Virus record (IMG/VR): IMGVR_UViG_3300000477_000004
Coordinates: 1 to 33,394 of that record
Strand: one strand, 5' to 3'
DNA from: a virus
Length of the DNA: 33,394 nucleotides
This document shows positions 26,352 to 30,856 of the stretch, one piece after another (the stretch's first letter is position 1; each line of letters starts with the position of its first letter). Below the pieces are notes generated by a model. It ran no database searches, was not told the DNA's origin, and saw nothing but the letters and a program-made list of their open reading frames with translations. The position numbers were made by a program, and so were the translations under genes.

Positions 26352-26939
26352 ATGCCAGTAAAAAAAGTAAAGAAGGTGGATAAATTTTTGTCTAAGGCAG
26401 CTAAGCAAAGTCAAGCGGTTTCCAATGTGTCAATGAAGTCCTTGATTGATAATTTAGAGCTGGTTGACATTAACAAGGTTAATCTTTGGGAAGATAATCC
26501 CAGAAAGAACGACCAGAATGTTGACAATGTTGCCAGATCGATAAGTGAGCATGGTTTTCGTTCTCCGCTTGTTGTGTGGAGAAAGAATGGTGTTGTTTAC
26601 AAAGGTAATACTACCTTGAAGGCCGCATTGAAGCTCGGCTTGAATAAGGTTCCTGTATCGTATCAAGATTTCCCTTCCGAGACTGCCGCTACTGCTTACG
26701 GTATTTCGGATAATAAAACAAGTGAAGGATCAAAATGGGATGAGGAGATTTTGTCAAGATTGATGAAGGCTCCTGAGTTTACGGAAGATATTGAGCGCAC
26801 AAAGAGGTTGACAGGTCTGAAAGATAAGGAGCTTAATGTTCTTCTGGAAAAGATGGAAGCTCCTGAAGAATTTCCTACCTATAAGGAAACTTTGAAAACG
26901 CAACATATCTGCCCTAAGTGTGGCTATGAGTGGGATTGA
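26352..26939 (+). CDS. ParB/sulfiredoxin-fold protein with zinc-ribbon tail
   Basis: The 195-residue product has a ParB/Srx N-domain: 'DNPRKNDQNVDNVARSISEH' then 'GFRSPLVV' and 'KGNTTLKAALKLGLNKVPV', matching the ParB-type G-x-x-R-x-x-AA-x-x-LG element but with Thr where the Arg would be. It ends with CPKCGYEW, a half zinc-ribbon. It has no DNA-binding HTH or dimerisation domain, so it is not a segregation ParB. In phages this fold is often next to or fused with DNA methyltransferases, and other Srx/ParB folds are kinases. Here it heads the presumed modification operon. RBS AAGGAG at 26339-26344. Confidence 0.75.
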   Translation: MPVKKVKKVDKFLSKAAKQSQAVSNVSMKSLIDNLELVDINKVNLWEDNPRKNDQNVDNVARSISEHGFRSPLVVWRKNGVVYKGNTTLKAALKLGLNKVPVSYQDFPSETAATAYGISDNKTSEGSKWDEEILSRLMKAPEFTEDIERTKRLTGLKDKELNVLLEKMEAPEEFPTYKETLKTQHICPKCGYEWD

Positions 26940-27001: not shown

Positions 27002-27205
27002 ATGGAAGTTTTAAGTAGGGCTAAATGTGGATGTAAGTGGTATGCGGATGCGAAGTTGGGTATTGTCTTTTGTAAAAGGCATAATAAAAAGTGGCTTAAC
27101 TATTTGAAAGGGTTGCGTAATGAGAAAGAAACAGGATCGAAATCTTCGGGATCTTCTCAAATGCATAATAAGAACAAAAGTGCCGTTAAACGAAGGAAAG
27201 GTTGA
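27002..27205 (+). CDS. Small Cys/His protein overlapping the first PP-loop gene
   Basis: I do not recognise the family. The 67-residue basic product begins with a compact 'CGCKWYADAKLGIVFCKRHNK' region (read as CGCKW then FCKRHNK), a possible C-x-C...C-x2-H zinc site, then a Ser/Lys-rich tail. RBS AAGGTGG at 26990-26996. It overlaps the next gene by 86 bases in another frame, more than any other pair in the window. Either it is a short accessory protein or one of the two starts is misplaced. Confidence 0.5.
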   Translation: MEVLSRAKCGCKWYADAKLGIVFCKRHNKKWLNYLKGLRNEKETGSKSSGSSQMHNKNKSAVKRRKG

Positions 27206-27959
27206 CGGAGTAGCTTTGTATCTATCTGGCGGAGTTGACTCAATGACACTCGGCTTCTTATGCAATGAAATGGGTTTTAAAGTAACCGCTTATTGTTTTG
27301 AGATTGATAATAATGTTACCGCTGATAGTTCATCGGCACGGAGGGCTTGCAATATGTTCGGTTGGGGTTTAAAAATCATAAACGTCCCATCTGAAAACGT
27401 GTATGATGATTTTAAGCGATTGACAAAATTGGGTTGCAGAAAGAAAACCCATTATGAGTGTACTTGGCCTATGCTTTATCTCTTTCCAGCGACAAAGGAG
27501 AAGTATATCTTTGGTGGCTATGGTGCTGATATACTTTACGGACTTTCAAAGCAAGCCTGTATGCATTATAAGTATACTATTGAATTATTAAACGACTATA
27601 GGGCAAAGCGATTTGCGGATGACAATCCGAATGGCGTGCGTCAAAGAGAGAATCTTGCCAAACGATATAATAAGGTTTTAGTTGAGCCGTACATGGATCC
27701 TATTATGCCTGATTATTTTAAAGATAAGACTTGGGACGATTGTAACCAGCCCGTACAAAAGGCAATCGTTCTTAGAGAATTTCCAGAGTTTAAAGAGTTC
27801 GGAAGACGTCCGCATATTAATTATCAATTGCTGGCAAAAATTCCCGAACACTTTGAAACGCTATTGGCTGGTGATTTAAACTTTAACAAACGGACAAGGA
27901 TTATTGATCTATGTAGGGATCATTATGAATTGGCAAAAAATAAAGGGGATGCAAAATGA
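27120..27959 (+). CDS. Asparagine-synthetase-like PP-loop ATPase, copy 1
   Basis: The 279-residue product is an adenylating PP-loop enzyme like the synthetase domain of AsnB. It has 'ALYLSGGVDSMTLGFL' (SGGVDS at 36-41 binds ATP), 'FGGYGADILYG' (131-141, the family GEGADELFGG) and the C-terminal block 'PVQKAIVLREFPEFKEFGRRPH' (read as PVQKAIVLREF then GRRPH, with K214 and R219). There is no N-terminal glutaminase domain, so it would use ammonia or another amine, as beta-lactam synthetase relatives do. These enzymes activate a carboxylate as acyl-AMP, then form an amide. It overlaps the second copy by 4 bases (ATGA). Confidence 0.85.
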   Translation: MRKKQDRNLRDLLKCIIRTKVPLNEGKVDGVALYLSGGVDSMTLGFLCNEMGFKVTAYCFEIDNNVTADSSSARRACNMFGWGLKIINVPSENVYDDFKRLTKLGCRKKTHYECTWPMLYLFPATKEKYIFGGYGADILYGLSKQACMHYKYTIELLNDYRAKRFADDNPNGVRQRENLAKRYNKVLVEPYMDPIMPDYFKDKTWDDCNQPVQKAIVLREFPEFKEFGRRPHINYQLLAKIPEHFETLLAGDLNFNKRTRIIDLCRDHYELAKNKGDAK

Positions 27960-28810
27960 GAGAATTAGAGGCAAAGTTTTTTAATGATCTTTGCAAAGCA
28001 GTTGAGGAACTCCTTGACGGAAAAGAAGCTGAAAGGAAGTTTATGCTTAGCGGTGGTATCGATTCGATTCTTTTACTTACGGCATACGATAAAGTTTTCG
28101 GTGCTAAGGATTTGAAAACTTACACCATGATAGGTACTAATCTAAAAGAGATCGGATATTCTCGGTTGTACGGTCAGCAATATTTTAAAACAGATCATAC
28201 CGAGATTAAAGTGACCTTAGATGATTTTCTTGACAGATTGCCTTTAATTCAGAATATGGGTTTTACCACAGTTTTCCAAACTATGTTCTATATTCTTATG
28301 TGGATAAGCATAGAGAAAGCAGATTTGGTAGGGACTACGATAATTCATGGTGGAGGTGCTGATCCTTTGCAAGGGTCAAGTAATGTATTTATGTATACCG
28401 CAACCAATCAGATAGCGGAATCTCGAAACGTTTCGGTTGATGTAGCCAGAGATATTATCAAAAAGGAAAATTACCAAAAGAGAGTTTCTTTTGAGGTAAA
28501 TAGTTCTGCATGGTTAAGGTCGTATGCTTACAAAAAGGTTGACGGAACTGAAATAGCTCCCTACTATAGTAAACACGTTTCATGGTTAGCATACGAACCA
28601 TTCTCCGTAACGCAACCTAAATCAAAAGGATTTTTTAAGTCCGTTATGAAGTATGCAGGTGTAAAGGGTGTAGATAAGATTCAAAGAGTGGGGTTGCAAT
28701 TGGGTACAGGTCTTTACTATCTACTTCGGAAAGAGCTTGAACAAGCTCATGGAATGGACGCTAACAAGATAATCAAGAAACTTTCCAAAAAGGATGAAAA
28801 ATGCGAATAG
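27956..28810 (+). CDS. Asparagine-synthetase-like PP-loop ATPase, copy 2
   Basis: The 284-residue product is a second, diverged AsnB-synthetase-like protein. It has 'KFMLSGGIDSILLLTAY' (SGGIDS at 32-37), 'TTIIHGGGADPLQG' (131-140, matching the GEGADELFGG position) and a C-terminal 'YSKHVSWLAYEPF' ... 'KIQRVGLQLGTGLYYL'. The C-terminal half is weaker than in copy 1, so the two may form a heteromer or have different acceptors. No glutaminase domain. It is translationally coupled to copy 1 and to the zinc protein that follows. The substrate is unknown; see findings. Confidence 0.8.
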   Translation: MRELEAKFFNDLCKAVEELLDGKEAERKFMLSGGIDSILLLTAYDKVFGAKDLKTYTMIGTNLKEIGYSRLYGQQYFKTDHTEIKVTLDDFLDRLPLIQNMGFTTVFQTMFYILMWISIEKADLVGTTIIHGGGADPLQGSSNVFMYTATNQIAESRNVSVDVARDIIKKENYQKRVSFEVNSSAWLRSYAYKKVDGTEIAPYYSKHVSWLAYEPFSVTQPKSKGFFKSVMKYAGVKGVDKIQRVGLQLGTGLYYLLRKELEQAHGMDANKIIKKLSKKDEKCE

Positions 28811-28995
28811 TAGAGAACAAAAATGAGGATAGGCGCAATAAACTTTGTAAATGTTGCGTATGCGGTAAGATTGCAAGGTGTACGATTACCAATGACTTTT
28901 ACGATACCCAAGATCACGGTGATGGGTTAGTTTGTGAAAGTTGCCTCTTAGGATATTTATCTAAAAAGGGTAGAGAGCAAAATGGAAAAGCCTAA
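28801..28995 (+). CDS. Small zinc-ribbon-like protein in the modification operon
   Basis: The 64-residue product has 'LCKCCVCGKIARC' and 'GLVCESCLLGYL', which together make a possible four-Cys zinc site. The ATG at 28801 lies inside the end of the PP-loop gene, and its own 3' end overlaps the methyltransferase start. This tight coupling on both sides suggests a subunit of the modification machinery, perhaps for DNA or partner binding. Inferred from context. Confidence 0.6.
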   Translation: MRIVENKNEDRRNKLCKCCVCGKIARCTITNDFYDTQDHGDGLVCESCLLGYLSKKGREQNGKA

Positions 28996-30004
28996 ATACA
29001 AAGTAATGCGGATGAAGAATATACGAAGATTAAAGCCTAATGGGTATTCTTTAGTGTCAACATTCTCAGGATGTGGCGGGAGCTGTCTTGGTTTCCGTAT
29101 GAAAGGATTTAGCGTTTTATACGCTAATGAGTTTATACCAGAAGCTCAAAAGGTTTACAAGGCGAATATGCACCCAGAGACCAAATTAGATTGTCGGGAT
29201 GTTCGTAAAGTTAAAGTTGAGGATATCTTGACAAGTACTGGTTTAAAAGTTGGAGAACTTGACGTATTCGAAGGCTCACCACCTTGCGCTTCCTTCTCTA
29301 CTGCGGGAAGTAGAGAGAAAGGATGGGGAGTTGTTAAGCAATACTCCTCAGTTGAGCAGAGAGTGGATGATCTATTCTTTGAATACGCTCGGTTGTTAAA
29401 TGGTTTACAGCCGAAGATGTTTATTGCGGAGAATGTATCTGGCTTGCGAAAAGGTAAAGCTAAGGGTTTCTTTAATCAGATTGTTCGGATACTTGAAGAT
29501 TGCGGTTATATAGTACGTTCGGCAGAACTTGATGCAATGTGGCTTGGCGTACCTCAATCAAGAAAGAGGCTTATTTTTATCGGAGTGCGAAAGGATTTCG
29601 ATATGCTTCCTATGTTTCCTCAACCCTTACCTTATTACTATACTGTTAAAGATGCGCTGCCGCATATTACAGAAGTTAAGTTTGGAGGTTTACCTGACAA
29701 CTGGAAAGGTAGTTTACGACCGAGTCCTACTATAGTTCAATCGGGAGCGATAAGAAGCGAAACGGCTTACTTCTCTGGTGCTACTTATTGTAAAGAAGCC
29801 GATAACGTGGTTCGAAAGTTTAGAATAGAAGAGATTCAGAGGCTGTGTGGGTTTCCTGATGATTTTGAACTTTACGGATCTTATGAAGAGCAATGGGAAC
29901 GCTTAGGGCGTGCAGTACCGCCAGTGATGATGTCACATATAGCAAGCTCAATTAAAGAATCTTTGGACTTCATTAACTCAGAGGACAGGCCGCCATGGCT
30001 ATGA
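28982..30004 (+). CDS. C5-cytosine DNA methyltransferase with unusual motif X (candidate carboxymethyltransferase)
   Basis: The 340-residue product is a Dcm-family enzyme. Motif I is FSGCGGSCLGF (28-38), II YANE (E50), IV EGSPPCASF (catalytic C102), VI AENVSG (E150), VIII QSRKRLIFIG (192-201), IX-like RIEEIQRLCGFP and X LGRAVPP (308-314). The target-recognition section between VIII and IX is short (about 75 residues). Motif X normally reads GNAVPP or GNSVPP. Here Arg (R310, codon 29909-29911) replaces that nearly invariant Asn, which contacts the SAM site. In engineered M.MpeI a Lys or Arg at the motif X Asn permits carboxy-SAM use, as I recall. The downstream CmoA-like gene fits this. No restriction partner is visible. 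Confidence 0.9.
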   Translation: MEKPKYKVMRMKNIRRLKPNGYSLVSTFSGCGGSCLGFRMKGFSVLYANEFIPEAQKVYKANMHPETKLDCRDVRKVKVEDILTSTGLKVGELDVFEGSPPCASFSTAGSREKGWGVVKQYSSVEQRVDDLFFEYARLLNGLQPKMFIAENVSGLRKGKAKGFFNQIVRILEDCGYIVRSAELDAMWLGVPQSRKRLIFIGVRKDFDMLPMFPQPLPYYYTVKDALPHITEVKFGGLPDNWKGSLRPSPTIVQSGAIRSETAYFSGATYCKEADNVVRKFRIEEIQRLCGFPDDFELYGSYEEQWERLGRAVPPVMMSHIASSIKESLDFINSEDRPPWL

Positions 30005-30111
30005 GTACGATAATAAAAATCTTAGTTGTATCGGGTACGCTTGTGGCTCCAATCTTATTGCTAATTGGAACTATACTGAATTTGTTGGTTTTACTTTTAC
30101 TACTGTTTTAA
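29995..30111 (+). CDS. 38-residue hydrophobic membrane peptide
   Basis: The product MAMSTIIKILVVSGTLVAPI, continuing as a Leu/Ile-rich run, is almost wholly hydrophobic and should span the membrane once or as a hairpin. It overlaps the methyltransferase stop. An alternative ATG at 30001 overlaps it as ATGA. It lies between the methyltransferase and CmoA-like genes. I cannot assign a function. Confidence 0.5.
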   Translation: MAMSTIIKILVVSGTLVAPILLLIGTILNLLVLLLLLF

Positions 30112-30121
30112 GGAGGCATAT

Positions 30122-30856
30122 ATGAATATTAAACATCCAACAGTTAAAGGCTTTTCCTTTGCAAGTATTGACTATGCGAAATTTGAAGAACATATCGCGG
30201 CGAGTATACCGGGCTACAATGAGGTAGAAAACATTATTCTCGGTCTGTCGGAATACTTTATTCAAGATCATTCAAACGTTTATGATCTTGGTTGTTCTAC
30301 AGGTCGATTGGTTTCTTTACTTGGTGATAAGCATAAGGGAAAGAGCAAAGCAAACTTTATTGGTGCGGAGATTGAGCCGAATTTTTATTACGGAATAGCA
30401 AAAAAGTTTGGGTATGAGATTGAAGATATTGGATGGGAATTCTACTTTGAGAATATGACTTTCAGCCGTGCCGATATTTGTTCCGATAAGTTTGTGATTG
30501 AGAATGCCAGCTTTGTTACGTCTGTTTTTACTTTTCAGTTTTTGCCTTTGCAGAAGAGAGAAGAACTTTTTAAGAAAATTTATGATGGCCTCAACTCTGG
30601 TGGTTGTTTAATGTTGACCGAAAAAGTTTACGCTTGCAATGCAAAATTTCAGGACTTCCTGACCTTTTTATATTACGACCACAAGAAAAAGAGCTTTACA
30701 GAGCAAGAAATTTTGGCTAAAGAACGTGATTTGAGGAATATGATGTATCCAGTGACGCTTGTCAAGTTGGAGAGTTTACTTAAGGAAGCTGGGTTTGCGC
30801 ATATTGAGACCGTATGGCGCAATTTGAACTTTGTTGGAGTTATTGCCGAAAAGTAA
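30122..30856 (+). CDS. CmoA-like SAM enzyme, candidate carboxy-SAM synthase
   Basis: The 244-residue product matches E. coli CmoA (247 residues) across its length. It has IPGYNEVENIIL (CmoA PGYSNII), VYDLGCSTG (YDLGCSLG), IENASFVTSVFTFQFL (IENASMVVLNFTLQFL), KIYDGLNSGGCLMLTEK (KIYQGLNPGGALVLSEK), a 'YYDHKKKSFTEQEI' block (HHDFKRANGYSELEI) and 'NLNFVGVIA'. CmoA converts SAM and prephenate to carboxy-SAM and phenylpyruvate. By my alignment, CmoA Arg199, a carboxylate contact, corresponds to E201 with Arg at 202, so the substrate should be tested. CmoB, the usual tRNA-modifying partner, is not present. RBS AAGGAGG at 30110-30116. Confidence 0.85.
   Translation: MNIKHPTVKGFSFASIDYAKFEEHIAASIPGYNEVENIILGLSEYFIQDHSNVYDLGCSTGRLVSLLGDKHKGKSKANFIGAEIEPNFYYGIAKKFGYEIEDIGWEFYFENMTFSRADICSDKFVIENASFVTSVFTFQFLPLQKREELFKKIYDGLNSGGCLMLTEKVYACNAKFQDFLTFLYYDHKKKSFTEQEILAKERDLRNMMYPVTLVKLESLLKEAGFAHIETVWRNLNFVGVIAEK

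Follow-up and report, generated by a model that had tools for sequence, protein, structure and literature searches.

The window analysed here, a 33,394-nucleotide stretch of viral DNA (IMG/VR record IMGVR_UViG_3300000477_000004, positions 1 to 33,394), encodes a protein of the DNA cytosine C5-methyltransferase family (28982-30004, + strand, 340 aa; PF00145, E 8.5e-53), which we name CmoX after its best solved relative, the DNA cytosine C5-carboxymethyltransferase of PDB entry 8YF3 (8yf3). Upstream of it on the same strand lie the gene for a ParB_N-domain protein (26352-26939, 195 aa; Pfam PF02195, E 8e-6; PHROG 620, E 3e-33) and two genes, overlapping by 4 bases, for asparagine-synthase-type ATP ligases: ligase 1 (27120-27959, 279 aa; PF00733, E 1.5e-7), an amide ligase of the CmoY type, and ligase 2 (27956-28810, 284 aa; PF00733, E 6.5e-10). 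A gene for CmoA, the carboxy-SAM (Cx-SAM) synthase, follows CmoX (30122-30856, + strand, 244 aa). Two small open reading frames flank CmoX, one with CxxC pairs and zinc-ribbon-like in appearance, between ligase 2 and CmoX (28801-28995, + strand, 64 aa), the other short and strongly hydrophobic (30001-30111); neither has a Pfam match. ParB genes precede CmoX in many of the loci that we surveyed, and ParB is also described as a CmoX companion in PMC12783734. A megablast search against phages, with 25 kb of the window as query, returned no match, and the dinucleotide bias of the window shows no avoidance clear enough to point to a target motif.

The initial annotation drew attention to motif X of the methyltransferase, which reads LGRAVPP (29903-29923, + strand, inside the span 29897-29925 singled out there), with Arg in place of the usual Asn. 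The residue is indeed Arg310 (codon CGT, 29909-29911, + strand), and the proposed correspondence to the motif X Asn of ordinary C5 methyltransferases is confirmed: in phmmer alignments Arg310 falls, ungapped, on the Asn of ‘GNAVP’ in M.HaeIII (1dct), on that of ‘GNSV’ in M.HhaI, and on Arg350 (‘GRMVPP’) of SpCmoX from Synechococcus phage S-B43 (PDB 8YF3), the sequence of which was also taken from its own genome record for comparison. 8YF3 is the strongest solved match by sequence (phmmer, E 1.9e-57) and by fold: the predicted structure of the window CmoX (mean pLDDT 87) places it at rank 1 (Z 33.7 over 289 residues, 37% identity), with M.HaeIII behind it (Z 31.1). The catalytic motifs are intact, with SPPC at residues 99-102, ENV at 150 and QSRKR (QxRxR) at 192; in the alignment, the catalytic C98 of SpCmoX corresponds to C102, and its Cx-SAM contacts F25, E47, F48 and D69 (as given in PMC12783734) correspond to F28, E50, F51 and D73. 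Since Arg is kept in essentially the whole CmoX clade, Arg310 is no chance substitution.

The probable role of this residue follows by homology from a phage DNA cytosine carboxymethylation system described by Yang et al. (Nat Commun 2025, December 2025; PMC12783734). In Synechococcus phage S-B43, SpCmoA makes Cx-SAM, SpCmoX uses it to place a carboxymethyl group on cytosine at GC motifs, yielding 5-carboxymethylcytosine (5cxmC), and SpCmoY couples glycine to the SpCmoX product (PMC12783734). Arg350 of SpCmoX contacts the Cx-SAM carboxylate; the wild-type enzyme accepts Cx-SAM only, while the R350N variant uses neither SAM nor Cx-SAM (PMC12783734), so that the Arg-to-Asn reversion of the window enzyme proposed in the initial annotation should not bring methylation back. 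It is for homologues, and by others, that Cx-SAM synthesis, 5cxmC formation, glycine ligation and resistance to HhaI have been shown. That a basic side chain at this position would pair with the extra carboxylate of the cofactor, as the initial annotation supposed, agrees with what Arg350 does in SpCmoX; given the published Arg/Cx-SAM chemistry, the idea was right, but not new. We consider it very probable, judging from the sequences, that the window methyltransferase is likewise an enzyme of the carboxy-SAM type and that its gene cluster is to be read as CmoA, CmoX and CmoY.

The CmoA-like neighbour on which this reading depends is real and akin to the proven phage enzyme: the protein is 40% identical to SpCmoA, and it matches E. 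coli CmoA structures (4gek/4iwn, E 1e-24) and, as its best family, TIGR00740 (E 8.8e-36). While its score of 123.8 bits lies below the NCBIfam cut-off of 193.3 for that family, so does the score of the proven SpCmoA (115.6 bits). In E. coli CmoA, Arg199 forms a salt bridge to the Cx-SAM carboxylate (PMC3663124). We numbered the alignment on an E. coli CmoA sequence, on which the residues named in PMC3663124 fall as expected (Y39, D62, G64, S66, D89, N90, D117, N132, E164 and R199); the column of Arg199 holds Glu201 in the window protein, with Arg205 four residues later. This Glu/Arg-shifted pattern is also found in SpCmoA and in 88 of the 181 CmoA homologues surveyed, and the E. coli pattern is retained in 16 of the 181. 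As SpCmoA is active, the pattern need not count against activity of the window CmoA, in which the shifted Arg205 may take over the role of Arg199. Most phage CmoA proteins have Glu at the position of E. coli Arg199, many of them with Arg four residues, or about one helical turn, later.

We surveyed the association between Arg and CmoA by scanning IMG/VR contigs with CmoX, CmoA, CmoY, a generic C5 alignment and an FpV9-type enzyme, calling open reading frames (ORFs) and reading the residue at the Arg310 column off the HMM alignment. Arg occupies this column in 212 of 363 surveyed ORFs, in the contexts GRAVPP, GRMVPP and GRMVAP. Restricting the count to scans not selected by CmoA or ligase, with near-duplicates removed, CmoA lies within 4 kb of 66 of the 71 Arg-type ORFs and of none of the 144 non-Arg ORFs (76 Asn, 65 Met, 3 other), these being counts among the best 80 matches per scan and not population frequencies. 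These counts take in the scan with a Staphylococcus-type enzyme, the Gly-type ORFs of which are unaligned at this column and were left out; they are the exceptions treated below. As the sequences are related, the very small Fisher values for this linkage overstate the independent evidence. Among bacterial genome contigs, CmoA is present at 25 of 28 Arg-type loci. At least one apparent exception among Arg-type enzymes outside these counts, that of Erwinia phage pEa_SNUABM_45, is due to distance: its CmoA gene lies ~18 kb from CmoX. The same CmoX (L252:18636-20771) is interrupted at the catalytic PPC motif itself by an intein-like insert, with matches to Intein_splicing (E 1e-7), Hint_2 and a C-terminal splicing region, so that splicing would restore the active-site cysteine. 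Verrucomicrobia metagenome-assembled genomes (contigs L452-L461 and L463-L465) hold multiple copies per genome of a ParB-CmoX-divergent CmoA arrangement, found on at least six contigs of JAKQDD01, four of JAOSKK01 and three of JABTUJ01; none of the ligase families covered by our searches turned up at these loci.

Because the surveyed sequences are related, more weight falls on the tree than on the linkage count. In an IQ-TREE tree of 46 enzymes, two rows with Asn (L083 and L087) and one with Leu (L053) are nested inside the CmoX clade, and no CmoA is found near any of the three in the fetched flanks, beyond which one could lie. In the opposite direction, a methyltransferase within an Asn lineage has Arg in the context AGRTVFIP and adjoins CmoA and a CmoY-like gene (L431:4274-5161, followed by a Gly-type enzyme at L431:5165-6184). 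A single clade of all Arg rows is rejected (p-AU 1.7e-5), as is a tree in which the main Arg rows stand apart from the nested Asn and Leu rows (p-AU 0.019); the sign test on independent tree pairs falls short of significance, with too few pairs (3 on starred branches). On the sequence evidence, we read L083, L087 and L053 as close CmoX relatives that have reverted to Asn or Leu, and the L431 lineage as one that has gained Arg independently. Such events test the published rule in nature: where relatives have lost Arg, no CmoA is found in the neighbourhood, and where an unrelated enzyme has gained it, CmoA and CmoY lie alongside. The expected linkage of Arg-type enzymes to CmoA-like genes is therefore borne out both by the counts and by the gains and losses on the tree.

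Arg is not the only residue that departs from Asn at motif X, and calling the Asn near-invariant, as the initial annotation did, was too strong: Met occurs in 83 surveyed ORFs, and Gly, Leu, Glu and Gln are also found. The Met-type enzymes include a large phage family of FpV9-type SPPC C5 methyltransferases (L247, L248 and L334-L413) without CmoA. No conserved neighbour that might supply another cofactor stood out near the Met-type enzymes: their commonest neighbour family, which has no assigned function, is present at 34 loci of the 83 ORFs, and the next commonest resemble ordinary phage genes, e.g. terminase. Gly-type enzymes, by comparison, do pair with CmoA. Staphylococcus phage vB-SscS-F1 encodes CmoA, a CmoY-like protein and a C5 enzyme with Gly at the Arg310 column (VGGVINQL), and a Staphylococcus SPbeta-like phage encodes CmoA and a C5 enzyme with the same Gly context (VGGVINQL; residue checked in L006:7461-8468 and L007:6651-7649); the other motifs of these enzymes are intact. 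The SPbeta-like arrangement recurs in three IMG/VR loci (L429, L430 and L432), the enzymes of which are 98-100% identical to that of L007. Arg is thus not strictly needed beside CmoA, and Gly-type enzymes may either bind Cx-SAM in another way or have a different partner. As a specificity marker, then, Arg is strong and CmoA-linked, as the initial annotation had it, but not the sole route; the published search rule (SPPC plus Arg), by which 5,615 candidate CmoX proteins were listed (PMC12783734), would miss the Gly-type enzymes beside CmoA.

In the pathway that we propose for the window phage, CmoA would make Cx-SAM from SAM and prephenate, and Arg310 of CmoX would pair with the Cx-SAM carboxylate, so that a carboxymethyl group is transferred onto cytosine in the phage DNA. 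Ligase 1 would then activate the carboxylate with ATP and join glycine to it, and ligase 2 would probably follow with another ATP-dependent amide-forming step, most likely at the glycine carboxylate. Cytosine hypermodified in this way would protect the phage DNA against nucleases of the host. We infer that the proteins of the window act like their homologues; the role given to ligase 2 is our proposal throughout.

Could the enzyme instead be an ordinary 5-methylcytosine methyltransferase, with a neutral Arg and CmoA as an accidental neighbour? In its favour, other phage enzymes have Met, Leu, Glu or Gln at motif X and lack CmoA, but the Arg is conserved across a diverse clade in which it co-occurs with CmoA, was gained independently beside CmoA in L431, and in SpCmoX goes with exclusive use of Cx-SAM (PMC12783734); we regard this explanation as very improbable. 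Even harder to credit is that CmoA serves tRNA modification (cmo5U at the wobble position) and is unrelated to the DNA methyltransferase. While tRNA modification is the classical role of CmoA, and several records annotate the protein as a tRNA methyltransferase, the window has no tRNA genes, no CmoB was found among the ORFs examined near CmoA, and the linkage of CmoA is specific to Arg-type C5 enzymes.

Ligase 1 is readily placed as an orthologue of CmoY. It is 41% identical to SpCmoY of S-B43 over 92% of the query and has the ATP loop SGGVDS and the CmoY signature (C106, K108-K109-T110-H111 and E113-C114), which is conserved in 60 CmoY homologues; we predict from its sequence that it couples glycine to 5cxmC. 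Ligase 2 is much more divergent. It has no match by tblastn in 50,697 phage records, and a scan of viral contigs with the single protein found no relative; with an alignment built from matches of other scans, 19 ligase 2 loci were recovered, the homologues being 25-29% identical. Asparagine and beta-lactam synthetases are the fold matches of its predicted structure (mean pLDDT 78.5), at Z 17-21, with Z 21 for asparagine synthetase and Z 19.6 for beta-lactam synthetase. SGGxDS, GxGAD and the Lys at the catalytic position are kept in all 16 homologues compared. In place of the CmoY acceptor signature, however, it has M101, F103, T104-T105, V106, Q108 and T109, which is why we do not file it as CmoY. 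With the ATP-binding and catalytic core kept and the CmoY signature absent, ligase 2 is probably, as far as its sequence indicates, an active ligase for another substrate.

Five other lineages have a ligase 2 homologue in the neighbourhood of CmoY, usually together with CmoX and CmoA, and gene order varies among them. In three of these the homologue is directly beside CmoY (L108/L113/L418/L419, L133/L137/L414/L427 and L180/L225/L226/L227); the same holds for L417, where CmoX and CmoA are absent from the fetched stretch, and in L169/L416 the two genes are 3.7 kb apart. On the short contigs L415, L420-L426 and L428, no CmoY, CmoX or CmoA is visible near the ligase 2 homologue. The companionship with CmoY is thus common, without being shown to be strict.

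What ligase 2 does in the pathway admits several answers. The glycine joined by CmoY offers a new carboxylate, and the simplest sequential model has a second ligase act there: CmoY would add glycine to 5-carboxymethylcytosine, and ligase 2 would link that glycine, through its carboxylate, to a further amine or amino acid. We put this forward as a possibility that is, taken by itself, on the unlikely side; if true, the cytosine of some phages bears a short chain resembling a peptide. We lean a little less sceptically towards the main rival, in which ligase 2 attaches another amine to 5cxmC itself, so that a mix of amides results, or towards a complex of ligase 2 with ligase 1, although this too is tentative. 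A conserved ATP-binding and catalytic core with a different acceptor region would suit any other amine, and the overlapping genes are probably expressed together; nothing decisive speaks against it, the companionship with CmoY near CmoX fitting a sequential step slightly better. It seems doubtful that ligase 2 is a paralogue in decay, or an unrelated one, that plays no part in base modification. Homologues located away from the cluster, on short marine contigs, would be in line with this, but the invariance of SGGxDS, GxGAD and the catalytic-position Lys in all 16 homologues, and the position next to CmoY, CmoX and CmoA in several lineages, argue against decay. The tandem ligases suggest that the carboxymethyl handle undergoes further chemistry.

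With the Arg already explained, the window mainly adds a divergent CmoA-CmoX-CmoY member in an otherwise unmatched phage, and the survey adds the tandem ligases, the Arg gain and loss events and the Gly-type exceptions. Compared with known systems, the window CmoX shares its fold and catalytic motifs with M.HhaI and M.HaeIII, which differ in having Asn at motif X, SAM as cofactor and no pairing with CmoA. M.MpeI N374K, cited in PMC12783734, is alike in that a basic residue in place of the motif X Asn leads to Cx-SAM use; it is engineered, has Lys rather than Arg, and is specific for CG. The initial annotation gave this change as Lys or Arg; the variant named in PMC12783734 is the Lys one. Among annotated phages, the best match to the window CmoX (55% identity) is that of Streptomyces phage TurkishDelight (NC_073473), which likewise encodes ParB, an Arg-type CmoX, a ligase and CmoA; its ligase, however, has a glutamine amidotransferase domain, and the pair of CmoY and a second ligase is absent. 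The closest parallel remains the S-B43 system, with which the window shares a CmoX with the motif X Arg and SPPC, a phage CmoA and a CmoY-type ATP ligase, all encoded by adjacent genes, as well as the ParB companion (seen in related contigs). The proteins of the two phages are about 40% identical, and gene order differs, being ParB-CmoY-ligase 2-CmoX-CmoA in the window and CmoA-CmoY-CmoX in S-B43. The S-B43 neighbourhood has no second ligase, and the main text of PMC12783734 describes one ligase per pathway and does not mention tandem ligases; the window phage, in contrast, encodes ligase 2 directly after its CmoY.
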